A stretch of DNA of 64,000 nt, taken from contig NZ_CP018799.1 of the NCBI RefSeq assembly GCF_002795805.1, positions 62,001 through 126,000 of the forward strand, in the 5' to 3' direction. The notes beneath the pieces were generated by a model. The model worked only from the letters and a program-made list of their open reading frames with translations. It was not told the origin of the DNA and searched no databases. Positions 16,500 to 55,836 of the stretch are shown here, in pieces (within the stretch, counting starts at the first letter, position 1; every line of letters starts with the position of its first letter). The stretch is from Mariprofundus aestuarium (GTDB lineage: Bacteria > Pseudomonadota > Zetaproteobacteria > Mariprofundales > Mariprofundaceae). A program made the position numbers and the translations under genes.

Positions 16500-16980
16500 C
16501 CATCAAAAGATACAGCTCAGCAGCTATCAGTCGAGCCTAAAGTCTGTATGATGATAAGGCTCAATTCGATTTCAGCATGGTTGGCCAATCCCGCCTTGCC
16601 CTGTTTGAGGAGGAGGTCTGCCTGATGCTCCCTCCTAGGGCTAGAGCTGCTGATTGAAGCACGTTTCTGATGTGGACAATGTGGCACTGGCAAGATTTGC
16701 CGGAAGTCTTGGCCAATTTTTCCGGGCTGTATGATATCTGATACTGGCGGCTACTGGCTCATCACTTCACTTCATCACAATATATTCTTACCCGTCAAAA
16801 TTCCAACCGCCTTCATTTTCTTGCCGGAAAAGAGGCTTTATGAACCATAAATCTACCCTAAACCAGCCTAAAATCAGGTGAATTTACGTCGATTTATTGA
16901 CGAGGTGCTAAAACAGGGTGCATTCTGACGTATTCGGGGGTGTAGTCCTTCGCGATATTTGTGATAAGGAGATTACAATA
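16500..16980 (+). other. Intergenic region upstream of rpfF
   Basis: About 480 bases between the divergent small gene and rpfF. I find no convincing gene: the short frames here lack ribosome sites and family resemblance. The last 60 bases are AT-rich and belong to the sequence duplicated inside the rpfF 5' end (see the repeat entry at 16928). TGGCAC occurs near 16681, but the following TTGC is 14 bases away instead of 10, so it is not a sigma-54 promoter. Confidence 0.5.
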
Positions 16981-17310
16981 ATGGGGCAAAACAAGTATAA
17001 AACGAACAGCTTATTCACTAATAATTTTAGAGGTTCAGATGCATCCATGGGAGTAGATGAAGACGACCATGGCTTGGCATTAAAGGTGCGTTCAGAGGAA
17101 TGCGAGGGAGGGATTCTTCGCAATACCAGCAATGAGGGGATTCAAAAGATGGAACAGCACCGCTTTAAAGCCAGTACAATACACACAAGCGAATATAGGG
17201 ATGCTTACAAATACGTTGAACAGTATAAGCTCAAAAACAACACATTACGTAAAAGCGAGTGTAGGCATTCATACACTTCCATGGGTGTTTTCTATGAGGA
17301 TAACCTTGAT
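16928..17310 (+). repeat. Diverged tandem duplication of the rpfF start region
   Basis: Three related segments precede the catalytic part of rpfF. In protein terms they start at Gln3, Gln59 and Gln81: QNKYKTNSLFTNNFRG, QHRFKASTIHTSEYRD and QYKLKNNTLRKSECRH. The first and third continue into SMGV followed by an acidic stretch and LAL or LAW. The DNA matches too: CTTCGCGATAT...AAGGAGATT upstream of the ATG at 16981 corresponds to CTTCGCAATAC...GAGGGGATT upstream of an in-frame ATG at 17149. The duplicated unit therefore included a ribosome site and start codon. Confidence 0.7.
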
Positions 17311-18075
17311 TTGGCGTGGTACTGTATGAAGGGACTTCCAAGGCCTTGCTTTACTCCAAAGTTATTGGATGAGACGTTAAGCTGGCTAAGAGATTTAAGA
17401 AACAACTCTGACCTGAACCACATTAAATATCTGGTCGTCACATCCGACACTCCCGAAGTATTTAACCTTGGAGGAGACCTCGATCTCTTTTGCAAACTAA
17501 TTCGAACTCGAAACCGGACAGGTTTATTGGAGTACGCAACAGCTTGCATCAAAGCCGTCTATCAGTTTCATACTGGGCTTGATAAAGACATTACGACCAT
17601 TTCGTTGGTGCAGGGAGATGCTCTGGGAGGTGGTTTTGAAACGGCAATTGCCGGCGAGGTGTTGATCGCAGAGAAGGGCTCCAAAATGGGAATGCCCGAG
17701 ATTCTCTTTAACCTGTTTCCTGGCATGGGAGCATTAAGCCTTCTTTCTAGAAAGGTCGGCCTCGCCCAAGCGGAAAAAATGATATTGAGCGGAAAGGTGT
17801 ACTCTGCCCAAGAGATGTTTGAATTGGGAATTGTCGACGTGCTGGTTGAAAAAGGAGAAGGTAAACAAGCAGTTTATGATTATCTCAAGAGAGAAAGCAG
17901 GGCAAGAAACGGCTTCCGTGCACTTCGTCGGGCAAAACGTTTTTGTAACCCGGTCAGCTATGAGGAACTGGAATCGATTACATCTGTATGGGTTGATGCG
18001 GCTCTTGAATTGACCGCGAAAGACCTGCGCATGATGGAACGGCTAATAAACAAACAGACTCAAAAGGCGGGATAA
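16981..18075 (+). CDS. rpfF: DSF synthase RpfF homologue (crotonase fold), with extended N-terminus
   Basis: Crotonase-superfamily enzyme. In Xanthomonas and Burkholderia RpfF makes cis-2-unsaturated fatty acids of the diffusible signal factor family by dehydrating 3-hydroxyacyl-ACP and releasing the product. Family hallmarks are present: RPCFTPKLLDE, FNLGGDLDLFCKLIR, SLVQGDALGGGFETA, GMPEILFNLFPGMGA and ITSVWVDAALEL. Glu220 and Glu240, 20 residues apart, correspond to catalytic Glu141 and Glu161 of Xanthomonas RpfF. From ATG 16981 (AAGGAG nine bases upstream) the protein has 364 residues, about 75 more than usual. The extra part is made of duplicated copies of its own start region. An internal ATG at 17149 would give a near-normal 308 residues. 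It converges on rpfC. Confidence 0.92.
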   Translation: MGQNKYKTNSLFTNNFRGSDASMGVDEDDHGLALKVRSEECEGGILRNTSNEGIQKMEQHRFKASTIHTSEYRDAYKYVEQYKLKNNTLRKSECRHSYTSMGVFYEDNLDLAWYCMKGLPRPCFTPKLLDETLSWLRDLRNNSDLNHIKYLVVTSDTPEVFNLGGDLDLFCKLIRTRNRTGLLEYATACIKAVYQFHTGLDKDITTISLVQGDALGGGFETAIAGEVLIAEKGSKMGMPEILFNLFPGMGALSLLSRKVGLAQAEKMILSGKVYSAQEMFELGIVDVLVEKGEGKQAVYDYLKRESRARNGFRALRRAKRFCNPVSYEELESITSVWVDAALELTAKDLRMMERLINKQTQKAG

Positions 18076-18132
18076 ATGGAGCGTAGCATGGCTCCTTGGA
18101 GTGTTATTGCCCCTGAATTTGGATGAAACAGG

Positions 18133-20595
18133 TCAGACTTGCCCTAGGTAATTGCGTAGGGACTCACATCCCTGCCTGAGGGCACTATCCAGCTGTTTGC
18201 AATAATTGACCATTTTAGAATGGTCGATGGTGCTGCCTATTTCTTCTATTTCATTGCATAGCATAACAACATCTTTCACACCGAGCGTGGCTGCAGAGCC
18301 TTTTAATCCATGAATCCTTAATAGATACTCTTGGCCATTATTCTGTTCTGCCGACAAGCTAAGCTGCACAAGATGTTCAAAGCCTGAGCTTTCGAGTGAA
18401 CAAATCAGGTGCTCCCGTTTCTCATCTGAGCGGATAAGGCCGAACAGTTCACTAATGACCGCCTCATCCAGGCATCCAGCATTGCCGGATCGTGAAGCCC
18501 CATCGCTGCTCTGCTTCTCCTGCTCTTCTTCACGATGACCTGAGTGCTCAGAGATCTTTTCCAGCAGGTCAGAGGCCCTGACTGGCTTCGTCAGGTAATC
18601 ATTGGCTCCAGCCTCCATGCACTCGCGCACCGTATTCGGCAGAGCATCGGCACTAAGCATCAGTACCGGCGTGGATGCACTGGTGTCCATAAATCGAAAC
18701 TGTTTAAGGACATCGAGGCCGCATACCTTCGGCATGTTCATATCAAGAATAACGAGATCGTACTCCTTCTCTTCGGCCAGGGCATCGAGCGCAGCTTCAC
18801 CATCATCGACGAGCTCAGTGTGGTGTCCAGCACGATTAAGGATTTCATAAATCACCTCCTGATTTACCGGATTGTCTTCGGCCACAAGAATATTGAGCGG
18901 CCGCTGTTTCATCTTCCGCTTCATTACATCATTGATGGAGATAACATCGGCGGAGTGGTGAACGACACTGGATGCATGCAAGGCATTAAACAGCAGCGAC
19001 TCCTGTATAGGCAGGTGAAGTACAGAAGAGAAGCCCGCCTCTACCATGACCGGATCTGCTGACTGCTCTTTGTCCGATTCAATCAGAATCAAGTCAAGGT
19101 TTGACAGGTCACTTTTGTCCCGGAGGGCATGGGCAATCAGTTCAGGTTTACATTGCAATGCGTCGCGACTAACCATGACCACATCGTATGGCTGACCTGT
19201 CGACCAGGCATCCACGATATTGGATAAAAGAAATTTTTCGTCCTCAATAAAAGCGTAATTCGTACCCCAGCGACTGAGCATCTTCTCCAGGGGGTTGCCC
19301 GGATACCTTTCCCCCAGCACCAGAATATTGACCTTGGTCAAGTCTTGCGAGGCGACGGTTTCTGTCTGTTGTTCAAGTGGAATCTCAATGGTGAAGGTGC
19401 TGCCTACACCCTCAGCGCTGAACAAACTAATGGAGCCCCCCATCATCTCCGTCAAGTTTTTTGCGATAGTGGTGCCAAGGCCCGTGCCGCCAAAACGCCT
19501 GGTGATGGTGGTATCAGCCTGAGAGAAGCGTTCGAATATCTTTTTCTGCGCCTCTTCGGACATGCCGATTCCTGTATCAATCACCTTGAAAGTCAGTCGT
19601 GTCTCCTCACTGTTTTCGGTCAGACTGAGGCGTACATTGACACTTCCATGTTCGGTGAATTTTACCGCATTTCCAATAATATTGAGCAGGATCTGCTTCA
19701 GGTGTTTGGGGTCGCCAACCAGCGCGAACGGCACTTGCGGATCAATATGCAGGCTAACCGTGATGCCCTTTGCTCCAGCTTGGCCTTCAAACATAGCTAC
19801 AACACCATGCATAAGCTGATGCATATCAAACGGCGATTTTTCCAGCTCAAGCTTTCCAGCTTCGATTTTAGCTATATCGAGAATGCGCTCGATCAATCCG
19901 AGCAGGTGATAGGCCGACTCCTTAATGACAAACGCAAAGCGTTTCTGTTCCGCATTCAGCTTGGTACTCAGAGAGAGGTCATTCATTCCGATGATGCCAT
20001 TCAGCGGCGTTCGCAGTTCATGGCTCATATTGGCTATAAACTGAGATTTGGCCTGATTGGCTGCCTCTGCATCGCTAATTGCCCGATGCAGTTTTGTGAT
20101 TAGGCTGGCCATGTATAAAGGAACAATAATAATCGCTATTAATATAGTTCCACTAAACCAGATGTGTTGTATCCAGAATGGATTTACTATGCATGCAGTT
20201 ATGAATCCTGCTAAAGCCAGGAGCATGGAGATATACAGGTATTTAATGCCATAGCGGAACCCATTGCCTGTAATTACCCATAAATAGACAGCCAGTAATG
20301 GTGCTGCCGTTTCGCCTGCAAGAAAAAGACCTGTCGAAATAGCAGACATGTCTCCAATAGCCCCGATGACTCTTCGAGGATGACTTGAGTCTGGCGCAGC
20401 AACGATCCAAACAAAGAGAAACAGTGATAGAAGAAGATATGCAGCGCTTACCTTATATGCGGTCGAAAAATCAAAATAGAAAAACCATGTAAATACAATC
20501 GCCACAAGAATGGAGCGGACAATGGCTTGCTCATGCTCTGAGTCCGAGCGACTGCGAAGGCGCCTCTTCACGAATGTAAGCCATTTGATCCCCAT
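18133..20595 (-). CDS. rpfC: RpfC-type hybrid sensor histidine kinase for DSF
   Basis: An 820-residue hybrid kinase. The N-terminus ([19 protein letters not shown]) and about five membrane segments with [14 protein letters not shown] and VPLYMASLI resemble the DSF-sensing input domain of Xanthomonas RpfC. HisKA follows with [12 protein letters not shown] (His192), then the ATPase domain ([16 protein letters not shown]). A receiver-like domain at about 420-545 lacks the phospho-acceptor Asp. A true receiver follows with Asp618 in VILDMNMPK, and finally an HPt domain with His762 in [12 protein letters not shown]. In RpfC the receiver also binds RpfF and limits DSF output. The gene is convergent with rpfF; no rpfG is adjacent. 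Confidence 0.9.
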
Positions 20596-20627: not shown

Positions 20628-20822
20628 TCACTTCTTTTCTGGCCTGGGCTCGAATTTCAGGCAGTTGATATTGGAGGCCACCTGCACTTCAAAACAGGGA
20701 AGCATTCCCGATTTGAATTTGAATGCACGGCAGCCGTGCGGTCTGTTCTGATCCCAAGTGATATAATAGTGCCTGCAGCCTCGGCACTGCGGTTTTTTCG
20801 TAGTGTCGGACGGGCTAGCCAT
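20628..20822 (-). CDS. Small conserved Cys-rich protein, possible zinc ribbon
   Basis: A 64-residue protein with PQCRGCRHYYITWDQNRPHGCRAF and a last Cys pair spaced along PCFEVQ and NCLKFEP. CxxC followed by HGC suggests a small zinc-binding fold. I recall similar short uncharacterised proteins in beta- and gammaproteobacteria, but the function is unknown. Its ATG overlaps the stop of the Rieske ferredoxin gene (TGATG), so the two are translationally coupled. Confidence 0.75.
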   Translation of the reverse strand: MASPSDTTKKPQCRGCRHYYITWDQNRPHGCRAFKFKSGMLPCFEVQVASNINCLKFEPRPEKK

Positions 20823-21136
20823 CAGTCGTCCAGATCAACCTGCACCATGCCGTTCTCCACACGGACTGGAAAGGTATCGATATTTTCATATGCAGGCGGG
20901 GTCAGCGACCGGCCATCGCGGATACAGAAGCGAGCCCCATGGCGAGGGCAGATAATCTGGTCGCCTTCGCAGGCACCGCTGGCCAGCTCGCCACCATCAT
21001 GGGTGCAAACATCCTCGATCGCGAAAAACTCACCATCGAGATTGAACACCGCGATCTCAGCATAAGGCGTCACCACCACCTTGCGACTTCCCGCCGGTAA
21101 TGCGCTCTCCGCTACTACATCGATCCATTCAGACAT
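20822..21136 (-). CDS. Rieske-type [2Fe-2S] ferredoxin
   Basis: A 104-residue soluble Rieske protein of the kind that serves non-haem iron oxygenases. The two cluster-binding motifs are CTHDGG and CPRHGARF, giving the 2-Cys 2-His ligand set. No oxygenase gene is adjacent, so its electron acceptor is unknown. An AAGGAG site precedes the start, and the gene lies 10 bases after nnrS. The neighbourhood (NnrS, SUF operon) suggests a redox or Fe-S role. Confidence 0.9.
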   Translation of the reverse strand: MSEWIDVVAESALPAGSRKVVVTPYAEIAVFNLDGEFFAIEDVCTHDGGELASGACEGDQIICPRHGARFCIRDGRSLTPPAYENIDTFPVRVENGMVQVDLDD

Positions 21137-21146
21137 CTCTTTCTCC

Positions 21147-22331
21147 TTAACCCGGTTTCCCGTCCAGTCGCGGTCGCAACAGAAGCATCGAATAGCGGAT
21201 GGTAAATATCAGGAATGCGATGATCCAGCACGTTGCGCTGATCTCCACCGCACGCTCAAGCCAGTCAGGGTACATCAGTGGTGCAATAACCCGTACACAG
21301 GCAGCTACAACCATCAATCCGAATGCAGCCGGCATCCACGGAAGCGCCCGCACGGGCCGTCCAGTGTGGCCGAGTGATACCCGCGCCATCATGCCGAGTG
21401 TAAACATGCTGACTGCCCCGATCGTCCATGCATGCACGGCATGCACAACGCCAAGATCCAATAGCAAGGCGCCCGCATAAAAGAGAAAACCGGCAATGAT
21501 CCAGCCATAACCGATATACAGCACCCATAACATTGGCTCCTTCCAGATTGCAGCCGTATACCAGTGCTGCATGCGTAGCGCGTGCAGGAGGGCAACCGTA
21601 ATCGCAGCGATTGCAATGATGGCAGGCAGAGGCAACAACAGGTTGAGTGCAGTAAACGCCAAAATTGAAGGCAGTGCCAGCTTTTCGATACTCTTGCTTG
21701 AGCCTGTCTGAGCGCCGGTTGTCTTGCCGATAAAAAAGGGCAATACCCGCCCGGCCATCAGCACGATGATAGCAACCAGCGTTAGCACGCCCAGGTGCAG
21801 CATAGGTGCCGTGCTCTCTTCAAGCTGGCCGAGAAGATCAAGGTGAATGCCCAGATTGCTGGCCGCCAGCAGCAGGAGCAGTGCCGGCACGCTGTAGTTG
21901 TGCGGCTGCTTTGCCTTTTGCAGGTTGCGAAAAAGAACGATTGCCAGCGTGGGAAGAAAAAGCATATCAAACAGGGCAAACAGCAGCGGCGGCATCGGAA
22001 CGGCTGAGACCAGGCGGGGGATTAACCAGAGCAGGACCAGCAGCGCCAGCGGCCAGCCGGTCGGTGTTGGCAGGCCCGTCCAGTTGCGCACCGCTGTGAG
22101 CAGGAATCCTGCAACCACGGCCACGGCGAATCCGAAGAGCATTTCATGCGCGTGCCAGAGCGAGAGATCAAAATAGTTGTAGTGCCAGATGCCGGTTACA
22201 AAACCACCAAGCGAGGTGGCCATAAACAGCATGGCGAACCATGCCGCAAGCAGGAAGAAGGGGCGGAATCCCAATGCCAGTGGCGCCCAGCCTGCAGGTT
22301 TTTCAGGAGCTGCATGGATATCAATTTTCAT
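21147..22331 (-). CDS. nnrS: NnrS family haem/copper membrane protein
   Basis: A 394-residue membrane protein with about twelve hydrophobic segments. LALGFRPFFLLAAWFA at the N-terminus and LWHAHEMLFGFAVAVVAGFLLTAV are hallmark NnrS stretches, with further His residues in HAWTIGAVSMFTLGMMARVSLGHTGR. NnrS proteins protect cells against nitrosative stress and are often regulated by NO-responsive factors. It sits 57 bases after sufT and ahead of the Rieske gene on the same strand. Linking NO tolerance with Fe-S assembly makes sense, because NO damages clusters. Confidence 0.93.
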   Translation of the reverse strand: MKIDIHAAPEKPAGWAPLALGFRPFFLLAAWFAMLFMATSLGGFVTGIWHYNYFDLSLWHAHEMLFGFAVAVVAGFLLTAVRNWTGLPTPTGWPLALLVLLWLIPRLVSAVPMPPLLFALFDMLFLPTLAIVLFRNLQKAKQPHNYSVPALLLLLAASNLGIHLDLLGQLEESTAPMLHLGVLTLVAIIVLMAGRVLPFFIGKTTGAQTGSSKSIEKLALPSILAFTALNLLLPLPAIIAIAAITVALLHALRMQHWYTAAIWKEPMLWVLYIGYGWIIAGFLFYAGALLLDLGVVHAVHAWTIGAVSMFTLGMMARVSLGHTGRPVRALPWMPAAFGLMVVAACVRVIAPLMYPDWLERAVEISATCWIIAFLIFTIRYSMLLLRPRLDGKPG

Positions 22332-22388
22332 GTTTTTCTATCCTGTTGAACTTCGCCATCAGGGAGTAAAAGACAGCGCGTTGATGCC

Positions 22389-22961
22389 TTAAAACATGCC
22401 AAGCTGGAGGCGTGCCTCATCGGACATCATGGAGCGATCCCAGGCCGGGTCGAACACCAGTTCCACCTCAACACCGCTGACATTGTCGACCGAAAGTGTT
22501 TTGAGGCGCACATCATCAACAATGAATGGCCCCATACCGCAACCGGGCGCGGTCAGCGTCATGACGATATCGACATGGTTGCCGCCCTCGTCATCTTCTA
22601 CAACATGCACGTCGTACACCAGCCCCAGATCGACGATATTCACCGGAATTTCGGGGTCGTAGCAGGTTCTCAGGGCATTCCAAACATCCTGTTCATCCAC
22701 CGGCCCATCCACCGGTTTCTTCTCTTCCTCGCTTGCTTTGGAAGCCGCGACTTGTTCGTCGCTTTCACCCAGGCCAAGTGCATCGGCATCCTTGCCTTCA
22801 ATACGGGCCAGGTTGCCTCCCACACTGACGGTGTAGGTGCCACCAAGCTCCTGAGTAATCAGCACCATCGCACCTGCAGGAATGGTGACCGGTGTGCCGA
22901 GCGGAATCAGAATCGCATCGACATCGCGGGTTGTAGTAAGTGTATCGCCAGCGCTATTCAT
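22389..22961 (-). CDS. sufT: Fe-S assembly protein SufT
   Basis: A 190-residue long-form SufT. The N-terminal part (ILIPLGTPVTIPAGAMVLITQELGGTYTV) is the SufT-specific extension. The C-terminal part is a MIP18/DUF59 domain with DPEIPVNIVDLGLVYDV and the Cys-containing LTAPGCGMGPFI. DUF59 proteins help cluster maturation and transfer. I chose ATG 22961 because it overlaps the sufU stop as ATGA. The longer frame to 23030 runs inside sufU. It ends the SUF operon proper. Confidence 0.9.
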   Translation of the reverse strand: MNSAGDTLTTTRDVDAILIPLGTPVTIPAGAMVLITQELGGTYTVSVGGNLARIEGKDADALGLGESDEQVAASKASEEEKKPVDGPVDEQDVWNALRTCYDPEIPVNIVDLGLVYDVHVVEDDEGGNHVDIVMTLTAPGCGMGPFIVDDVRLKTLSVDNVSGVEVELVFDPAWDRSMMSDEARLQLGMF

Positions 22962-23413
22962 TCTGTCTTTGCCACCTCGTCGGAATCTGTAACGGCCGAC
23001 TTCAGAGTATGCCAGCAGAGTACGGCGCATTTAATGCGACTGGGAAACTCGCGCACACCGGAGAGTACAGCCAGCTTGCCCAGCACCTCTTCGTCGGGAA
23101 CCTCACTTAGATCGGCTGTAACCATATGCTGGAACATATCGAACTTCGCACTGAATTCGGAGAGCGGCGTACCTTTCACCGCTTCAGTCATCAATGATGC
23201 TGAGGCAACAGAAATGGCGCACCCTTCACCTTCAAAGGAGACTTCCTCGATCAAGCCTGCATCGTTTACATTCAGGTAAACGTGGAGCCGGTCTCCACAT
23301 AGCGGGTTATAACCGTCCGCTTCATGGTTGAATTTCTCCAGCTTGCCGAAGTTGCGTGGACTCTTGTTGTGATCAACGATCACCTGCTGGTATAGATCTC
23401 TTAAATCGAACAT
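22958..23413 (-). CDS. sufU: SUF system scaffold or sulfur-transfer protein SufU
   Basis: An IscU-like protein of 151 residues. The three conserved cysteines are Cys39 (NPLCGD), the one in EGEGCAISVAS and the one in RIKCAVLCW. The insert before the last Cys is typical of SufU. In Gram-positive bacteria SufU is a zinc-bound sulfurtransferase partner of SufS; here it replaces SufE, which is not in the operon. It follows sufS with a one-base overlap. Confidence 0.92.
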   Translation of the reverse strand: MFDLRDLYQQVIVDHNKSPRNFGKLEKFNHEADGYNPLCGDRLHVYLNVNDAGLIEEVSFEGEGCAISVASASLMTEAVKGTPLSEFSAKFDMFQHMVTADLSEVPDEEVLGKLAVLSGVREFPSRIKCAVLCWHTLKSAVTDSDEVAKTE

Positions 23414-24633
23414 CAGCCGAAAATCTCCTGTGCTTTTTTCAACGCGGCGAAGAGCGCATCGACTTCGGCCTCTGTGTTATAGATCGAGAACGAAGCGCGT
23501 GCGGTAGCCGGCACCTTGAAGAAGTCCATCACCGGCATCGCGCAGTGGTGGCCAGCACGGATCGCCACGCCTTCACGATCAAGGATAGTGCCAAGGTCAT
23601 GCGGATGCACCCCGTTGAGCACAAATGAGAGTACACAGGCCTTCTCTTTCGCTGTACCAATCTGGCGTAAGCCCTCAAAGGCCTCCGCCTTTGCCGTGGA
23701 GTAGGCAAGCAGCTCCTTTTCACGCTTCTGAATGGCATCAAAGCCAATTTCCTGAATGTATTCGATCGCCCTGCCGAAACCGATGGCGCCGGAGATGTTC
23801 GGAGTTCCCGCTTCGAACTTGTAGGGCAGGTCGTTATATTCGGTCTTCTCGAATGTCACCATGCGGATCATGTCACCACCGCTCTGATAAGGGGGCATGG
23901 CCTGCAGCAATGACTCTTTGGCAACCAGCACACCGATACCGGTCGGGCCGTACATCTTATGCGCACTGGTGACGTAGAAATCTGCATCAAGCGCCTGAAC
24001 ATCAACCGGCAGATGTGCAGCCGCCTGTGCGCCATCCACCAGAACTTTCGCACCCACGGCATGGGCTCGCTCAATGATTTCGGCAACCGGGTTAATGGTG
24101 CCCAGTGCATTGGACATATGAACCACGCCAACCAGCTTGGTGCGCTCACTCAAAAGCTCGTCGAGCGATTCCATAATCAGCTCGCCCTTCTCGTTGATCG
24201 GAATGACCTTGAGTGTTGCGCCAACATGCTCGCAGAGCATCTGCCACGGCACGATGTTGGAGTGATGCTCCATATGCGTGATCAGTACCTCATCACCAGC
24301 GCGTACGTTGTAACCGCCCCAGCTGTGGGCCACCAGATTGATCGCTTCGGTAGTGCCTCGGGTGAAGATCACTTCGCGTACGGAGCGGGTATTAAAGAAC
24401 TCGGCAATAGTCTTGCGTGCACCTTCATAGGCTGCTGTGGCGCGCTCAGAGAGTGCATGTACACCACGATGAACATTGGCGTTGTCGCGTTCGTAGTAAT
24501 GGGTGATCGCATCAATAACAGACTGAGGTTTCTGTGTGGTTGCCGCATTATCGAGATAAACCAGCGGTTTACCGTAAACCTGCTGGCTTAATATCGGAAA
24601 ATCGGCGCGCACAGCGTTCAGGTCCATACTCAT
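23413..24633 (-). CDS. sufS: Cysteine desulfurase SufS
   Basis: PLP enzyme that mobilises sulfur from L-cysteine for Fe-S assembly. The 406 residues show the PLP lysine in TSAHKMYGPTG, the His in HMEHHSNIVPW and the catalytic Cys in RAGHHCAMPVM, in the short-loop arrangement of group II enzymes. It overlaps sufD by four bases (ATGA) and sufU by one. The enzyme would deliver persulfide to SufU and the SufBCD complex. Confidence 0.96.
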   Translation of the reverse strand: MSMDLNAVRADFPILSQQVYGKPLVYLDNAATTQKPQSVIDAITHYYERDNANVHRGVHALSERATAAYEGARKTIAEFFNTRSVREVIFTRGTTEAINLVAHSWGGYNVRAGDEVLITHMEHHSNIVPWQMLCEHVGATLKVIPINEKGELIMESLDELLSERTKLVGVVHMSNALGTINPVAEIIERAHAVGAKVLVDGAQAAAHLPVDVQALDADFYVTSAHKMYGPTGIGVLVAKESLLQAMPPYQSGGDMIRMVTFEKTEYNDLPYKFEAGTPNISGAIGFGRAIEYIQEIGFDAIQKREKELLAYSTAKAEAFEGLRQIGTAKEKACVLSFVLNGVHPHDLGTILDREGVAIRAGHHCAMPVMDFFKVPATARASFSIYNTEAEVDALFAALKKAQEIFG

Positions 24634-25880
24634 GTCAGCATATCCTCAAGGCCGGAGAGGTTGGGCAGCTTGGCAAAGGCGGCGCGCTCAATATAACGGC
24701 GTATCGGCTTGATCTTCATTTTGGCCAGCAGCTCATCGGCAAAGGCGAAGGTAAGCAGCTGTTTCGCTTCCTCTTCGGAAAGCCCGCGCGACTTAAGGTA
24801 GAACAGCTGGTTTTTATCCAGCTGACCCACGGTTGCGCCGTGCGCACACTTCACATCATCGTTATAGATCTCAAGCTCGGGTTTGGTATCAATCTCGGCG
24901 CGGTCAGAGAGCAGAAGATTGGCATTGGACTGCGCCGAATCAGTTTTGACCGCACCCTTGGCCACAACCACTTTACCGTTGAAAACAGCATGTGAACGAC
25001 CATCGAGTACAGTGCGGTAGCTTTCACGGCTTCTGCAATGCGGAGCCTCGTGGGCTACGCGGGTATGATGATCAACATGCTGGCGGCCTGAGAGAACAAA
25101 AAGTCCATTAAGCTCGGATTCAGCGCCGCATTCATTCAGGTCATCCACCACATCAACGCGTGAGAGCGCAGAACCCAGCTCCACCGCATGCATGGTATAG
25201 GAGGAGTCCGCCTTCTGGTTCACCTCAACACGACCAAGGTGCCACTGCTTTCCACTCTCCAGCTGCAGGCGGTAATGCTCACAGCGACCGCCGGCCTCTA
25301 AACGAATAGCAGTCAGGCTGTTGGTGACTCCTGCCACGTCTGCATTACCTGCAAAGTGTTCGATAACTTCGAGCTCTGCGTGCTCACCGATTGTAATGCC
25401 GGTACGCAGATGCACAGCACCACCACTGTTGATATGCAAAATATGCAGAGGCCGATCCAGTTTCAGATTTGCAGGCACACAGATGCAGCAGCCATCTACT
25501 GCCTTCGCCGCATTCACAGCCGTCATACCACTGGCAAACGGCGCATCGGCCTTATATTCCATTAACTCAATCATCTTCTCAGGCTCATCCTGAATCAGGG
25601 ACGCCAGTGAAGTTACGTTGACAGTTTTCGGCAGCTCTGAAGCCTCAGCGTCAAAACGACCATTCACGAATAAAACCGTATAGGCATCGAGACCGGCAAT
25701 GGCAAAAGTATCACGATCGACCTCGCCTTTAGCCACAACATCCCACCACTGCTCACCGAGCAGAGCGGTAATGCGGGTCAGGTCACTGTATTTCCAGTCT
25801 TCATCACGCGCACTTGGCAGTCCGGCCGCCTCGAAGGCCTGCCATGCCGTTTCGCGAGCGGCTTGCAGTGTGGTACTCAT
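24630..25880 (-). CDS. sufD: Fe-S assembly protein SufD
   Basis: A 416-residue beta-helix subunit of the SufBC2D scaffold complex. Clear SufD features include WKYSDLTRI near the N-terminus, the central [20 protein letters not shown] and the C-terminal [33 protein letters not shown]. The His in KCAHGA corresponds to the cluster-site His of E. coli SufD. It overlaps both sufC and sufS by ATGA junctions. Confidence 0.95.
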
Positions 25881-26635
25881 GCAGCGGCCTCTTCTCTGAC
25901 CCAGTCATAACCACGCTCTTCGAGCTCGAGGGCAAGGGATGCATCGCCAGTTTTCAGGATCTGTCCGTTGACCAGCACATGCACCACATCGGGTTTAATA
26001 TAATCAAGCAGGCGCTGGTAGTGGGTTACCATGACCACCGAACGGTCAGGCGCTCGCAGGGTATTCACACCTTTGGCGACAATGCGCAGGGCATCGATAT
26101 CCAAGCCTGAATCGGTCTCATCAAGCAGTGCCAGTGACGGCTCAAGTACTGCCATCTGAAAAATCTCGTTACGCTTTTTCTCACCACCGGAGAAGCCTTC
26201 ATTCACACCGCGTGACAGAAAGGACTGATCAAGTTCCACCAGTTTTGCCTTCTCTTTCACCAGCTGCATGAACTCCATTGCATCAAGCTCCTGCTCGCCC
26301 TGATGTTTACGACGGGCATTCACACCCGCTTTAAGCAGGTAGGTGTTATTTACACCAGGAATCTCAACCGGATACTGGAATGCGAGAAATACACCTTCCC
26401 AGGCGCGCTCTTCCGGGCGCATCTCCAGCAGATCCTTACCCTTATAGATAATCGTTCCCTTGGTGACTTCATAGCCGTCGCGGCCGGCAATCACATTGGA
26501 GAGTGTAGACTTGCCGGAACCATTCGGCCCCATGATGGCGTGCACTTCACCAGCACCAATCTCCAGATTGATCCCCTTCAGGATCTCTTTGCCGCCTACT
26601 GAGACGTGTAAGTTCTCTATCTTAATCATTGTCAT
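25877..26635 (-). CDS. sufC: Fe-S assembly ATPase SufC
   Basis: ABC-type cytoplasmic ATPase of the SufBC2D complex, 252 residues. Walker A is GPNGSGKST, the signature motif is [11 protein letters not shown], and Walker B is [12 protein letters not shown] with the switch His in MVTHYQRLL. The [15 protein letters not shown] segment is a SufC hallmark. AAGG lies before the start. The sufB stop is only six bases upstream. Confidence 0.96.
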
Positions 26636-26641
26636 TCCTTA

Positions 26642-28108
26642 TTATCCCACTGCGCCTTCAAGGCTAACTTCCATCAATCGGTTCGCTTCAACTGCAAATT
26701 CCATCGGCAGTTCGTTAAATACATCTTTGCAGAAGCCGTTAACGATCATATTCACTGCATCCTCTTCCGAGATGCCACGGCTCTGACAGTAGAAGAGCTG
26801 GTCTTCTCCAATCTTCGAGGTGGTTGCCTCGTGCTCCATTGTTGCCGTCGCATTCTTCACCTCCACATAAGGGAAGGTGTGTGCACCGGACTTATCACCG
26901 ATCAGCAATGAATCACACTGGGTGTAGTTGCGCGCGTTCTCGGCATCCTTTCCGATACGTACCAGCCCACGATAGGACTGGTTGCCGCGCCCTGCAGAGA
27001 TGCCCTTGGAGACAATCGTACTGCGCGTGTTCTTGCCAATATGAATCATCTTGGTGCCGGTATCAGCCTGCTGACACATCTTGGTCAGTGCCACCGAGTA
27101 GAACTCGCCCACTGAATGGTCGCCACGCAGTACGCAGCTCGGATACTTCCATGTAATCGCACTGCCTGTTTCTACCTGAGTCCAGGAGACCTTGGCACGA
27201 TGACCACGGCACTCAGCGCGCTTGGTTACGAAGTTATAGATGCCACCAAGCCCGTTCTCATCACCCGGGTACCAGTTCTGAACGGTTGAATACTTAATCT
27301 GCGCATCATCCATCGCCACCAGCTCAACGACAGCTGCATGCAGCTGGTTCTCATCGCGCTGCGGGGCCGTGCACCCCTCGAGGTAAGAGACGTAGGCCCT
27401 CTCCTCGGCAATGATCAGTGTGCGTTCGAACTGACCTGTATTCATCGCATTGATGCGGAAATAGGTGGATAGCTCCATCGGGCAGCGCACGCCCTTGGGG
27501 ATGTAAACAAAGGAGCCATCAGTAAAGACCGCTGAATTAAGCGCCGCATAGAAGTTGTCGCCAGCAGGCACGACGGTGCCGAGATATTTCTGCACAAGCT
27601 CAGGATAATCGCGCACAGCCTCCGAGATCGGGCAGAAGATCACACCTGCATCCTTCAGCTTGCCTTTAAATGTGGTGGCCACGGAGACCGAATCAAACAC
27701 CGCATCTACGGCAACACCGGCCAGAAACTCCTGCTCACGCAGTGGAATGCCCAGTTTTGCATAGGTTTCCAGCAGCTTCGGATCAACCTCATCAAGGCTT
27801 TTAGGCCCGTCTTTCATCGATTTCGGTGCGGAGTAGTAGGAGACCGCCTGATAATCAATCGGCGGATAACTTACATGCGCCCAATGCGGTTCGGTCATTG
27901 TCTGCCAGTGGCGGAATGCCTCCAGCCTCCAGTTCAGCAGCCACTCAGGCTCCTGCTTCATCGCTGAAATATGGCGAACCACATCCTCGTTCAGCCCCGG
28001 TGGCAGGGTGTCTGCTTCGATATCAGAAACAAAACCCGCCTCGTATTCGCGGGATGCCATCTCTTCCGGCGTGGATTCGGATTTAGATTGTTTTTTTATG
28101 TCACTCAT
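26642..28108 (-). CDS. sufB: Fe-S assembly protein SufB
   Basis: Main scaffold subunit of the SUF system, 488 residues. The conserved core reads [36 protein letters not shown] and, near the end, [23 protein letters not shown] followed by [31 protein letters not shown]. The Cys in NYTQCDS is the expected cluster-assembly cysteine. The start overlaps the regulator stop (TAATG), so the operon is translated as a coupled unit from the regulator onward. Confidence 0.97.
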
Positions 28109-28563
28109 TAGTGCACCTTCGAGATAGCGATGCCGCGCTGCAGGCGGAAGATCGGTACAAAGTTCTGTTCGGTCATGTCGGCCAGCGAGATATCCTGCAG
28201 TGCCTGACGCACAGCATCATTGATCCGCTTCCAGTTGTTGCTGGTGGAGCAGACATCGTGCTGGTCACAGGAGCTGTCATCGAGATTGCACTCGGTCAGG
28301 GCAATGGAACCCTCGAATACATTGATGATATCACGCACATTGATTTCGGTAGATGGGCGTGTCAGGCGATAACCGCCTTTGGCGCCACGGGTAGAGTCCA
28401 GCAGTCCTTCATGGAGCAACATCTGCAGAATCTTACTGACGGTTGGTGACGGAATGCGGGTAATCTCCGCAAGTTCGGCAGCGGTAAACCGCTCCTGCTC
28501 AGACGACACCATGCGCGTCATCAGCAGGATGCCGTAGTCCGTCAATTTGGTCAGTCTGAGCAT
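28108..28563 (-). CDS. Rrf2 family SUF operon regulator
   Basis: A 151-residue Rrf2 regulator. The N-terminal winged helix contains [31 protein letters not shown] and [11 protein letters not shown] three-Cys cluster-binding motif follows in [16 protein letters not shown], like the [2Fe-2S] site of IscR. Regulators of this type at the head of suf operons sense Fe-S status and repress their own operon when clusters are plentiful. I chose the ATG at 28563 with AGAGG five bases upstream; a GTG at 28569 is also in frame. Its probable operators are the two palindromes upstream. Confidence 0.92.
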
Positions 28564-53743: not shown

Positions 53744-55315
53744 TTATTTGCTAATCTGTTCCATCTGAGATGTGGCCTGAGTTTCAATCAGGCCCTCTTC
53801 AATGGCTTCAATCGCGACCTCTACTACTGCACTATCAAATTGTGTGCCAGAGTTGAGGCGAAGTTGTTCAATACAGAATGAAAGAGGCTGTGCTGTTCGG
53901 TATACCCGATGCGATGTCATAGCATCAATAGCGTCTGCTACGCAGACTATTCTTGCGGCAAGTGGAATCTCTTCGCCCTTGAGCTTGTCCGGATACCCGG
54001 AGCCATCCATGCGTTCATGGTGATGGCGGACCATTTGACGCTCCCGTCCCAGGCCATCCAGGTTTTTCAAAATCGTATCACCAATCGCCGGATGCGCTTT
54101 CATGCGGGCAAATTCCTGATCGGTAAACCTACCTTCTTTCAGCAGGATGCTATCGGGAATCCCTACCTTTCCAAGGTCGTGCAGCAAGCCGCCTGTCTGG
54201 ATGAGGTCAATAGCCTCCTGGTCCAGCCCCAGTTTCGCGGCAAATATGACACTCATTTTACTCACTCTGGATGAGTGGTCTTTGGTGTAGCGATCCCGGG
54301 CTTCCAGCAGGCTAGCCAACGTGATCAGGGTCTCCTTCATGCTGTCTTGCAGGGCGGCATGTACTGCCCGGTTATCCAGCAGTGTGTCCAGGTGAGCCAC
54401 AAGTAGCCCCAGCGTATTTTTATGCTGTTCACTTAATGAGGCTTCACGATAATCCATCAGGCAAATAACGCCCATTGCCCTTTGCTCAAGTCGAATCGGA
54501 ATGGCGATGTAACTATGAGCATCTACGCCCGGCCAGCAGCTGTAAGAAAGCCCTGAGTCCACAACCGACTGGATGTAGTCTTCACGCCCCTCCAGCAGTG
54601 GTTCAAATGGAGTACTGTCCAGCTTGCAGTTCACAGCGATGTTCCACGGCATGCCCGCTTCTTCCAGTCCGTTGTGTGTGGCCAGAACAAGTTTTTTCGC
54701 GTCCCGCTGATATAACGCCAGGAAGCCGCTATGTGCACGCACTATATCCATAGCCAGAGTCAGCGAACTACTGCAAATCTTGGCTACCTCTTTATGCTTG
54801 GGGATATCATTTAACAAGCGGAACAGCAGTCCCAGGTGCCTGTCCATCGCAAACAGCTCAGGTAGCAGGTGGCCATGCATAGGATGCGGCGCTTCTACTG
54901 TTTCTTCTTGAGTTGGCGATTTAGGCTGGGGCACATGTGGAACAGCACCCGAACTTAGAAAGGCCTTTTCAACACAATCCAGCAGTGCAGCCGGATGGAA
55001 GGGTTTGTGCAATATGTGCCCAATCCCAAGTTTTTCTGCCTCCTGCAGTTTCTCAGGCGAGAGAAAGCCGCTGGCCAGGATGATTGGAATGTCGATGTTT
55101 CGTTCCCGCAGTTCTGAGATCAGCTCCAGAGACTCTCCATCACCAAGCGTAAGGTCTGCAATCATTCCATCCCAGGGTTGGCTCTCAAAAAGCTCGCGAC
55201 CAGCCTTGACGCTGTCAGCACATGTAATGTGGATCCGGTCCGAGAAATCATCGATGGTTTCAACTATTACGTTGCGAACCATGGCCTGGTCTTCAAGTAA
55301 GATAATATTCTGCAT
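53744..55315 (-). CDS. Receiver-GAF-HD-GYP response regulator, likely c-di-GMP phosphodiesterase
   Basis: A 523-residue regulator. The receiver (about 1-120) carries Asp in GMIADLTLGDG and Lys in ILHKPFHP. A GAF domain spans about 170-320. The HD-GYP domain follows with GLLHDLGKVGIPD, HPAIGD and HHHERMDGSGYPDKLKG, so the metal-binding HD and the GYP motifs are intact. In DSF systems RpfG, a receiver-HD-GYP protein, is phosphorylated by RpfC. This protein is a candidate partner, but its added GAF domain and flagellar operon make that only a guess. Confidence 0.9.
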   Translation of the reverse strand: MQNIILLEDQAMVRNVIVETIDDFSDRIHITCADSVKAGRELFESQPWDGMIADLTLGDGESLELISELRERNIDIPIILASGFLSPEKLQEAEKLGIGHILHKPFHPAALLDCVEKAFLSSGAVPHVPQPKSPTQEETVEAPHPMHGHLLPELFAMDRHLGLLFRLLNDIPKHKEVAKICSSSLTLAMDIVRAHSGFLALYQRDAKKLVLATHNGLEEAGMPWNIAVNCKLDSTPFEPLLEGREDYIQSVVDSGLSYSCWPGVDAHSYIAIPIRLEQRAMGVICLMDYREASLSEQHKNTLGLLVAHLDTLLDNRAVHAALQDSMKETLITLASLLEARDRYTKDHSSRVSKMSVIFAAKLGLDQEAIDLIQTGGLLHDLGKVGIPDSILLKEGRFTDQEFARMKAHPAIGDTILKNLDGLGRERQMVRHHHERMDGSGYPDKLKGEEIPLAARIVCVADAIDAMTSHRVYRTAQPLSFCIEQLRLNSGTQFDSAVVEVAIEAIEEGLIETQATSQMEQISK

Positions 55316-55323
55316 CTCGCCCC

Positions 55324-55836
55324 CTACCGGCCACTGGCCTGCAGTGAACTGTATATCTTCACTGCTTTGGCTTGTTCAGCTTTATTGTCGGGGTGATCGG
55401 ATCGATCAGAAGGGCTTGTTCCCTGCGTTTGTCGCAGCAGCCTCTGGTACGCGGCTGCGTTATCCAGCCGAACCCTCATTTCAGGCAACTGGAAAGGCTT
55501 GCTAACAAAATCATATGCGCCCTGTTTGACGGCTGACAAGGCATCTTCAATGCCTGAATAGCCAGTCATCAAAACAACAATAATGCGGGCAAAGTCGCCT
55601 CCCGCTTTCTTCAAAACCTCAATCCCGCTAGCTCCGGGCAGCATGATGTCGCTTAACACCACGTCAAAGTGTTGACGATCCAGGAGCTCGATGGCTGAAC
55701 TCCCGTCATTGACTACCTGTATGTCGTAATTGGATGCGCTTAAGTACTCTTCGAGCAAGGCAGCCAAGGCTGTATCATCTTCAACGATCAACAGCCGACA
55801 TTTATTTTGGCTGCTGTTAGCCACCACGAGGACCAT
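55324..55836 (-). CDS. Stand-alone receiver with C-terminal tail
   Basis: A 170-residue protein with a receiver domain (about 12-130): LLIVEDDTALAALL, Asp in VVLSDIMLPGASG, Thr in VLMTGYSG and Lys in FVSKPFQLPE. A charged tail of about 35 residues follows with no recognised domain. The N-terminal receiver resembles those of NtrC-type regulators, but there is no output domain. It overlaps the preceding small gene by 20 bases and lies eight bases before the HD-GYP gene. Confidence 0.88.
   Translation of the reverse strand: MVLVVANSSQNKCRLLIVEDDTALAALLEEYLSASNYDIQVVNDGSSAIELLDRQHFDVVLSDIMLPGASGIEVLKKAGGDFARIIVVLMTGYSGIEDALSAVKQGAYDFVSKPFQLPEMRVRLDNAAAYQRLLRQTQGTSPSDRSDHPDNKAEQAKAVKIYSSLQASGR

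Follow-up and report, generated by a model that had tools for sequence, protein, structure and literature searches.

An RpfF/RpfC-type gene pair in Mariprofundus aestuarium

Does a two-gene locus of Mariprofundus aestuarium belong to the DSF signalling family, and, if so, how would its synthase and sensor operate with no rpfG beside them? The locus lies in a 64,000-nucleotide stretch of contig NZ_CP018799.1 (positions 62,001 to 126,000; hereafter the window, to which all coordinates refer unless a contig is named), and the host genome consists of one contig of 2,537,610 bases. The initial annotation had read here a complete pair of RpfF synthase and RpfC sensor and had raised the possibility of a zetaproteobacterial host; the host is indeed a Mariprofundus (Zetaproteobacteria). 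Both open reading frames are present where they had been placed, on the same strands: rpfF, encoding a 364-aa DSF-type synthase of the crotonase fold (16981..18075, +), with a likely ribosome-binding site, AAGGAG, at 16966..16971 (+), and rpfC, encoding an 820-aa hybrid sensor kinase (18133..20595, −). The two genes stand tail to tail across a 57-bp gap, in agreement with the convergent order that had been claimed. This arrangement recurs in 88 of the 101 loci examined, zetaproteobacterial and other, which are not all separate genomes and of which several of the non-convergent remainder are interrupted by contig ends.

The assignment of RpfF was supported by several lines of evidence. The generic NCBIfam model PRK08788 matched the protein with 367 bits (cut-off 177), while the RpfF equivalog model NF053515 scored 252 bits, below its cut-off of 550, which appears to be tuned to close xanthomonad relatives. 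The closest PDB structures were 7zq7 (titled RpF-1), Xanthomonas RpfF (3m6m), B. cenocepacia DfsA and Cronobacter RpfF. When the AF2 model (pLDDT 87) was searched with Foldseek, the top 12 matches were all RpfF or DfsA (E about 1e-22) and ordinary hydratases followed at 1e-13, so that the DSF synthases led the next matches by about eight orders of magnitude. In a quick family tree with long outgroup branches, the window protein fell within a zetaproteobacterial clade of 31 rows (support 99). This clade is nested among RpfC-linked RpfFs of sulfur oxidisers, Methylophaga, Acidithiobacillus and Leptospirillum, and is separate from the hydratases and from the Burkholderia-type clade; the grouping with ordinary enoyl-CoA hydratases against which the initial annotation had cautioned did not occur.

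The motifs quoted at the outset are present, as are the two glutamates 20 residues apart: E220 of GGGFE and E240 of MPE (364-aa numbering) align with Xcc E141 and E161 within a catalytic segment at 17626..17700 (+) that also includes the oxyanion glycine G138. Residues reported as essential for RpfF, in Xcc numbering, are G86, G138, E141 and E161 (PMC9040811), and equivalents of all four are found in the window protein. An ordinary enoyl-CoA hydratase or housekeeping thioesterase, next to an RpfC that senses something else, would be compatible with a score that clears only the generic model and falls short of the equivalog one. Against it stand the clustering with RpfC-linked RpfFs, the wide lead of RpfF/DfsA structures over hydratases, the conserved catalytic positions and the linkage between RpfF evolution and the RpfC sensor domain described below, and we consider it highly improbable.

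RpfC likewise has the make-up of its family, with about five hydrophobic N-terminal helices followed by HisKA, HATPase, REC and Hpt domains in this order and no HAMP domain. The input domain, with about five membrane helices (20056..20595, −), is of the type that we call I from sensor distances and the sensor tree, and that also occurs in the genus-mate G065 and in G055. It contains the stretch R16-S-D18-S19-E20-H-E-Q23 (20527..20550, −), in which R16, D18, S19, E20 and Q23 occupy, with identical spacing, all five positions through which Xcc RpfC has been shown to bind DSF (R15, D17, S18, E19 and Q22). The kinase core, HisKA plus HATPase_c, lies at 19372..20052 (−), the receiver domain at 18553..18891 (−) and the Hpt domain at 18154..18390 (−); the expected phosphorylation sites are H192, D618 and H762. 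The receiver domain of Xcc RpfC binds RpfF (PDB 3m6m). A search of the input-domain fold against the PDB gave no match under E 0.5. The domain order and the DSF-binding residues uphold the RpfC assignment, and on sequence grounds the pair is confirmed as a genuine RpfF-family DSF synthase with an RpfC-type kinase.

Further kinases with RpfC-like input domains were observed. In one genome a second such kinase is encoded near the rpf pair (G022, C15:16937-17461). Others, as at C1:1028415-1028879 of the window genome, belong to a group of about 700–760 aa and 21–32% identity that is present in many Zetaproteobacteria.

The linked rpfG gene is missing

The word complete in the original description does not hold for the system as a whole: RpfF and RpfC are there, and RpfG is absent at the locus and has no clear ortholog in the genome. 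Among loci long enough to be counted, 64 of 68 outside the Zetaproteobacteria have rpfG immediately upstream of rpfC, vs 1 of 25 within them (Fisher p about 4e-17, relatedness ignored). With RpfG absent, the canonical arm is missing from the biofilm or motility output that had been inferred.

A scan of the window genome for RpfG returned a best match of only 32–36% identity among about 14 HD-GYP proteins. Output could still pass through an unlinked RpfG-like protein, for which there are two candidates: this best full-length match, a REC-HD-GYP protein (C1:998694-999824), and a REC-GAF-HD-GYP protein encoded in the window 33 kb from rpfC (53747-55375, −), by its layout a possible c-di-GMP phosphodiesterase. 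The former has the same REC-HD-GYP layout as RpfG; yet its identity is well below the about 50% of linked RpfGs, and its gene adjoins that of a 1151-aa protein, possibly its own partner, for which an N-terminal membrane segment is predicted. We therefore regard this route as rather unlikely, and the regulator that receives the phosphate from RpfC is probably another, unlinked response regulator. RpfG-like proteins of 45–49% identity occur in other Zetaproteobacteria, mostly ones that have no rpfF.

The place where other classes have rpfG is occupied by a conserved block upstream of rpfC (20822..28563, −) with genes for a Rieske ferredoxin, NnrS, SufT, SufU, SufS, SufD, SufC, SufB and an Rrf2-type regulator; the suf names are based on sequence inspection and synteny, and Rieske and NnrS on Pfam. 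In most zetaproteobacterial genera the rpf pair neighbours the suf operon; rpfC is downstream of, and co-directional with, suf, and the Rieske and NnrS genes often intervene. Because this suf-adjacent site is common to most genera examined, we rejected the recent foreign island that the GC dip (0.42–0.47) alone might suggest; a search for a viral home for the locus gave no match.

RpfF was found in 33 of 78 zetaproteobacterial genomes. The rpf locus is old in this class and has been lost repeatedly, being lost or decaying in several Mariprofundus. Relatives in this genus that lack rpfF form a decay series at the same genomic site: one retains rpfC, whose REC region has a 75-residue gap, together with an rpfF remnant of 28 residues (G057), one only a 255-residue REC-Hpt piece (G054), one only a 108-residue Hpt piece (G053), and in one the site is reduced to a 230-bp spacer (G056). 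Such RpfC leftovers could persist as free Hpt proteins. The decay stages (L268, L269, L270 and L272) are situated between orf80/TauE and the Rieske gene.

Three further observations concern the distribution. In one genome that also has a full RpfC, a gene divergent from rpfF (L079:5653-6435, −) encodes a free REC-Hpt protein, which is 261 aa long and shares 29% identity with the tail of RpfC. An RpfF-like crotonase of 32–34% identity occurs on an E. coli plasmid (NZ_CP060058, IncK2/Z), lined up with genes for an FtsX-like permease and for lipoprotein sorting, a context that is not that of a DSF locus. A link of rpfF to stalk or dread genes was considered and rejected, since BcsB-like (sfz1-like) genes occur both with and without rpfF.

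The window rpfF is a mosaic

RpfF starts with an N-terminal extension of about 90 residues (16981..17250, +) within which the start region recurs in three imperfect repeats; it is missing in most relatives and partly shared with M. ferrinatatus CP-8 (G047, name inferred). As these first ~90 residues are absent in most relatives, the true start may lie further 3' than 16981, and an alternative ATG is found at 17149 (+). The DNA 5' of rpfF and the extension are CP-8-like, not G065-like; the catalytic body (17260..18072, +) is 75% identical to G065 at the amino acid level and 57% to CP-8.

The junction falls near 17236-17280. Up to about 17235, DNA identity to CP-8 is 73–84% in most stretches near the rpfF start and G065 is unlike; from about 17260 onwards, identity within rpfF is 55–87% with G065 vs 46–73% with CP-8 (permutation p 5e-5 for the mosaic). 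Sites in the flanking PBP2 and RodA genes favour CP-8 (292:160 and 210:76), whereas RpfF and RpfC sites favour G065.

RpfF and the RpfC sensor domain switch together

The window sensor domain is 66% identical to that of G065 and 39% to that of CP-8, and the kinase core is 79–83% identical to G065, CP-8 and G050 alike. A within-gene mosaic test of the window RpfC alone against CP-8 and G065 was not significant (p=0.29). Across the class, the sensor types I, II and III, named by sensor distances, each form one group in the sensor-domain tree and extend over genus borders; the type III clade comprises four genus codes with support 100/99. The core tree shows genus groupings, and monophyly of types II and III is rejected on the core (AU 2e-9 and 5e-8). 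Since the types were defined on sensor distances, this core test is the informative one. Grouping of the window with CP-8 is rejected by the RpfF data (AU 4e-32) and by the sensor-domain data (4e-5), while the core supports it at 94/85, which is not decisive.

Distance correlations point in the same direction. A partial Mantel test of RpfF against the input domain, given the core, gave r=0.56 (p=0.0002, n=30); within Mariprofundus the value is 0.84, and that of RpfF against the core, given the input domain, is −0.04 (not significant). Outside the Zetaproteobacteria RpfF correlates with the core as well as with the input domain. Seven pairs with close cores (75–89%) have switched sensors (32–47%), and the six of them with data have RpfFs of 57–75% identity vs 79–94% in five same-type pairs; G035 and G036 are one example (core 0.89, REC 0.92, input 0.32, RpfF 0.59). 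Many of the compared relatives are MAGs, and mis-binning hardly explains a switch because sensor and core share one reading frame. The synthase-sensor match is not one-to-one, as type III RpfFs fall into two clades (AU 0.037). In statistical terms, the comparisons demonstrate that RpfF and the RpfC sensor domain have been exchanged between lineages as matched types, with the core staying resident.

Could whole rpfFC cassettes have moved instead, the core looking species-like through conservation or later homogenisation? The core evolves more slowly, and a correlation between RpfF and the core does exist, although weaker; yet shared ancestry of this kind sits poorly with core trees that reject types II and III and show genus groupings. 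In pairs like G035/G036, moreover, a core that was either not co-transferred or later replaced is modular exchange itself, and we judge the cassette account improbable. The core, REC and Hpt regions do separate rpfF from the end of rpfC that codes for the sensor, so one exchange of neighbouring DNA would be insufficient unless the core was later replaced. Fast divergence of sensors in place, under diversifying selection without recombination and with RpfF coevolving, would account for a rapidly evolving input domain and for the Mantel signal outside the Zetaproteobacteria. It does not predict supported type clades that cross genera, such as type III, or a DNA-level mosaic junction in the window rpfF, and appears quite improbable. 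Matched exchange thus remains our favoured reading: the window pair is likely a DSF-type signalling module without linked RpfG whose synthase and sensor are exchanged as matched types.

An aspartate active-site class of RpfF

Fourteen of the compared RpfFs, all zetaproteobacterial, carry Asp in place of E161 (L064, L065, L066, L070, L071, L077, L078, L079, L082, L083, L025, L093, L122 and L139), vs Glu in the 84 others. The Asp-type proteins always have FPGAGA or FPGIGA where the 84 Glu-type ones have FPGMGA. The E161D change has three origins and marks types II and III, and the window RpfF belongs to the Glu class. The substitution may alter the chemistry or the product. A repeated independent association of Asp-type RpfF with a Pro-type RpfC sensor was rejected, as only 2–3 independent pairs are available, which is too few.

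A tentative extension of matched exchange is that several DSF "dialects", each excluding the others, exist in the Zetaproteobacteria: every sensor type would recognise its own cis-2-fatty acid, made by a matched RpfF (the Asp class of RpfF included), and a lineage would switch by replacing rpfF and the sensor while keeping its own kinase and non-RpfG output. We regard this as a possibility somewhat short of an even chance.

Proposed mechanism

By family and active site, RpfF would release a cis-2-unsaturated fatty acid from 3-hydroxyacyl-ACP. The short N-terminal segment of RpfC and its membrane helices would bind this signal and switch on autophosphorylation, and phosphate would then pass from H192 to D618 to H762, residues that are present in the protein, and on to an unlinked response regulator, probably not RpfG. 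As in Xanthomonas, the receiver domain probably also restrains RpfF. The simplest cause of matched exchange would be selection that pairs a synthase with a sensor of its product.

Comparison with known DSF systems

With the Xanthomonas campestris rpfF/rpfC/rpfG system the window shares the convergent gene order, a crotonase-fold synthase with both glutamates, and a 5-TM hybrid kinase with REC, Hpt and the DSF-binding residues. It differs in lacking rpfG (at the locus or as a clear ortholog) and a link to rpfH or rpfB, in the genes that precede rpfC (suf operon, Rieske and NnrS), and in the N-terminal extension of RpfF; identity is about 39%.

The nearest precedent for matched exchange is S. 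maltophilia rpf-1/rpf-2, where RpfF and RpfC variants are fully associated, the N-terminal sensor region differs and recombination breakpoints are found (PMC4517397). There too an RpfF variant is tied to a sensor variant, with recombination, but the two variants occur in one species and have 10 vs 5 TM segments. In the Zetaproteobacteria, by contrast, at least three sensor types of equal layout extend across genera with several switches, the core follows species, active sites differ by E161D and rpfG is missing.

DSF clusters beyond xanthomonads have been described in Methylophaga, Leptospirillum, Thiobacillus and Methylobacillus (PMC4504480), and the Leptospirillum cluster has a one-directional gene order (PMC8357829). 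The rpf clusters of Leptospirillum, Thiobacillus, Methylophaga and Acidithiobacillus, mostly chemolithotrophs, hold the nearest RpfF relatives outside the class and have an RpfC partner, but retain rpfG. The RpfF-RpfR systems of Burkholderia and Cronobacter share the synthase family and fold and differ in their PAS-GGDEF-EAL receptor RpfR and in the separate clade of their RpfF. In agr, ComQXPA and similar pherotype systems, a peptide signal maker and the receptor input are exchanged as matched specificity groups; the likeness lies in this matched exchange, the difference in a predicted fatty-acid signal of putative specificity in place of peptides.

Our literature search found no DSF study of Zetaproteobacteria. 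Pairs of this kind are known, though seemingly undescribed so far in this class, and modular exchange without RpfG seems to be new. Cell-cell signalling is little known in marine iron-oxidisers, which build iron mats and stalks, and with the rpf locus a defined system is available in two complete genomes. That a linked RpfG is lacking in nearly the whole class raises the question of how RpfC signals without this c-di-GMP phosphodiesterase, and the matched exchanges amount to chimeras made by nature, from which the parts of RpfF and RpfC that set fatty-acid signal specificity can be learned.
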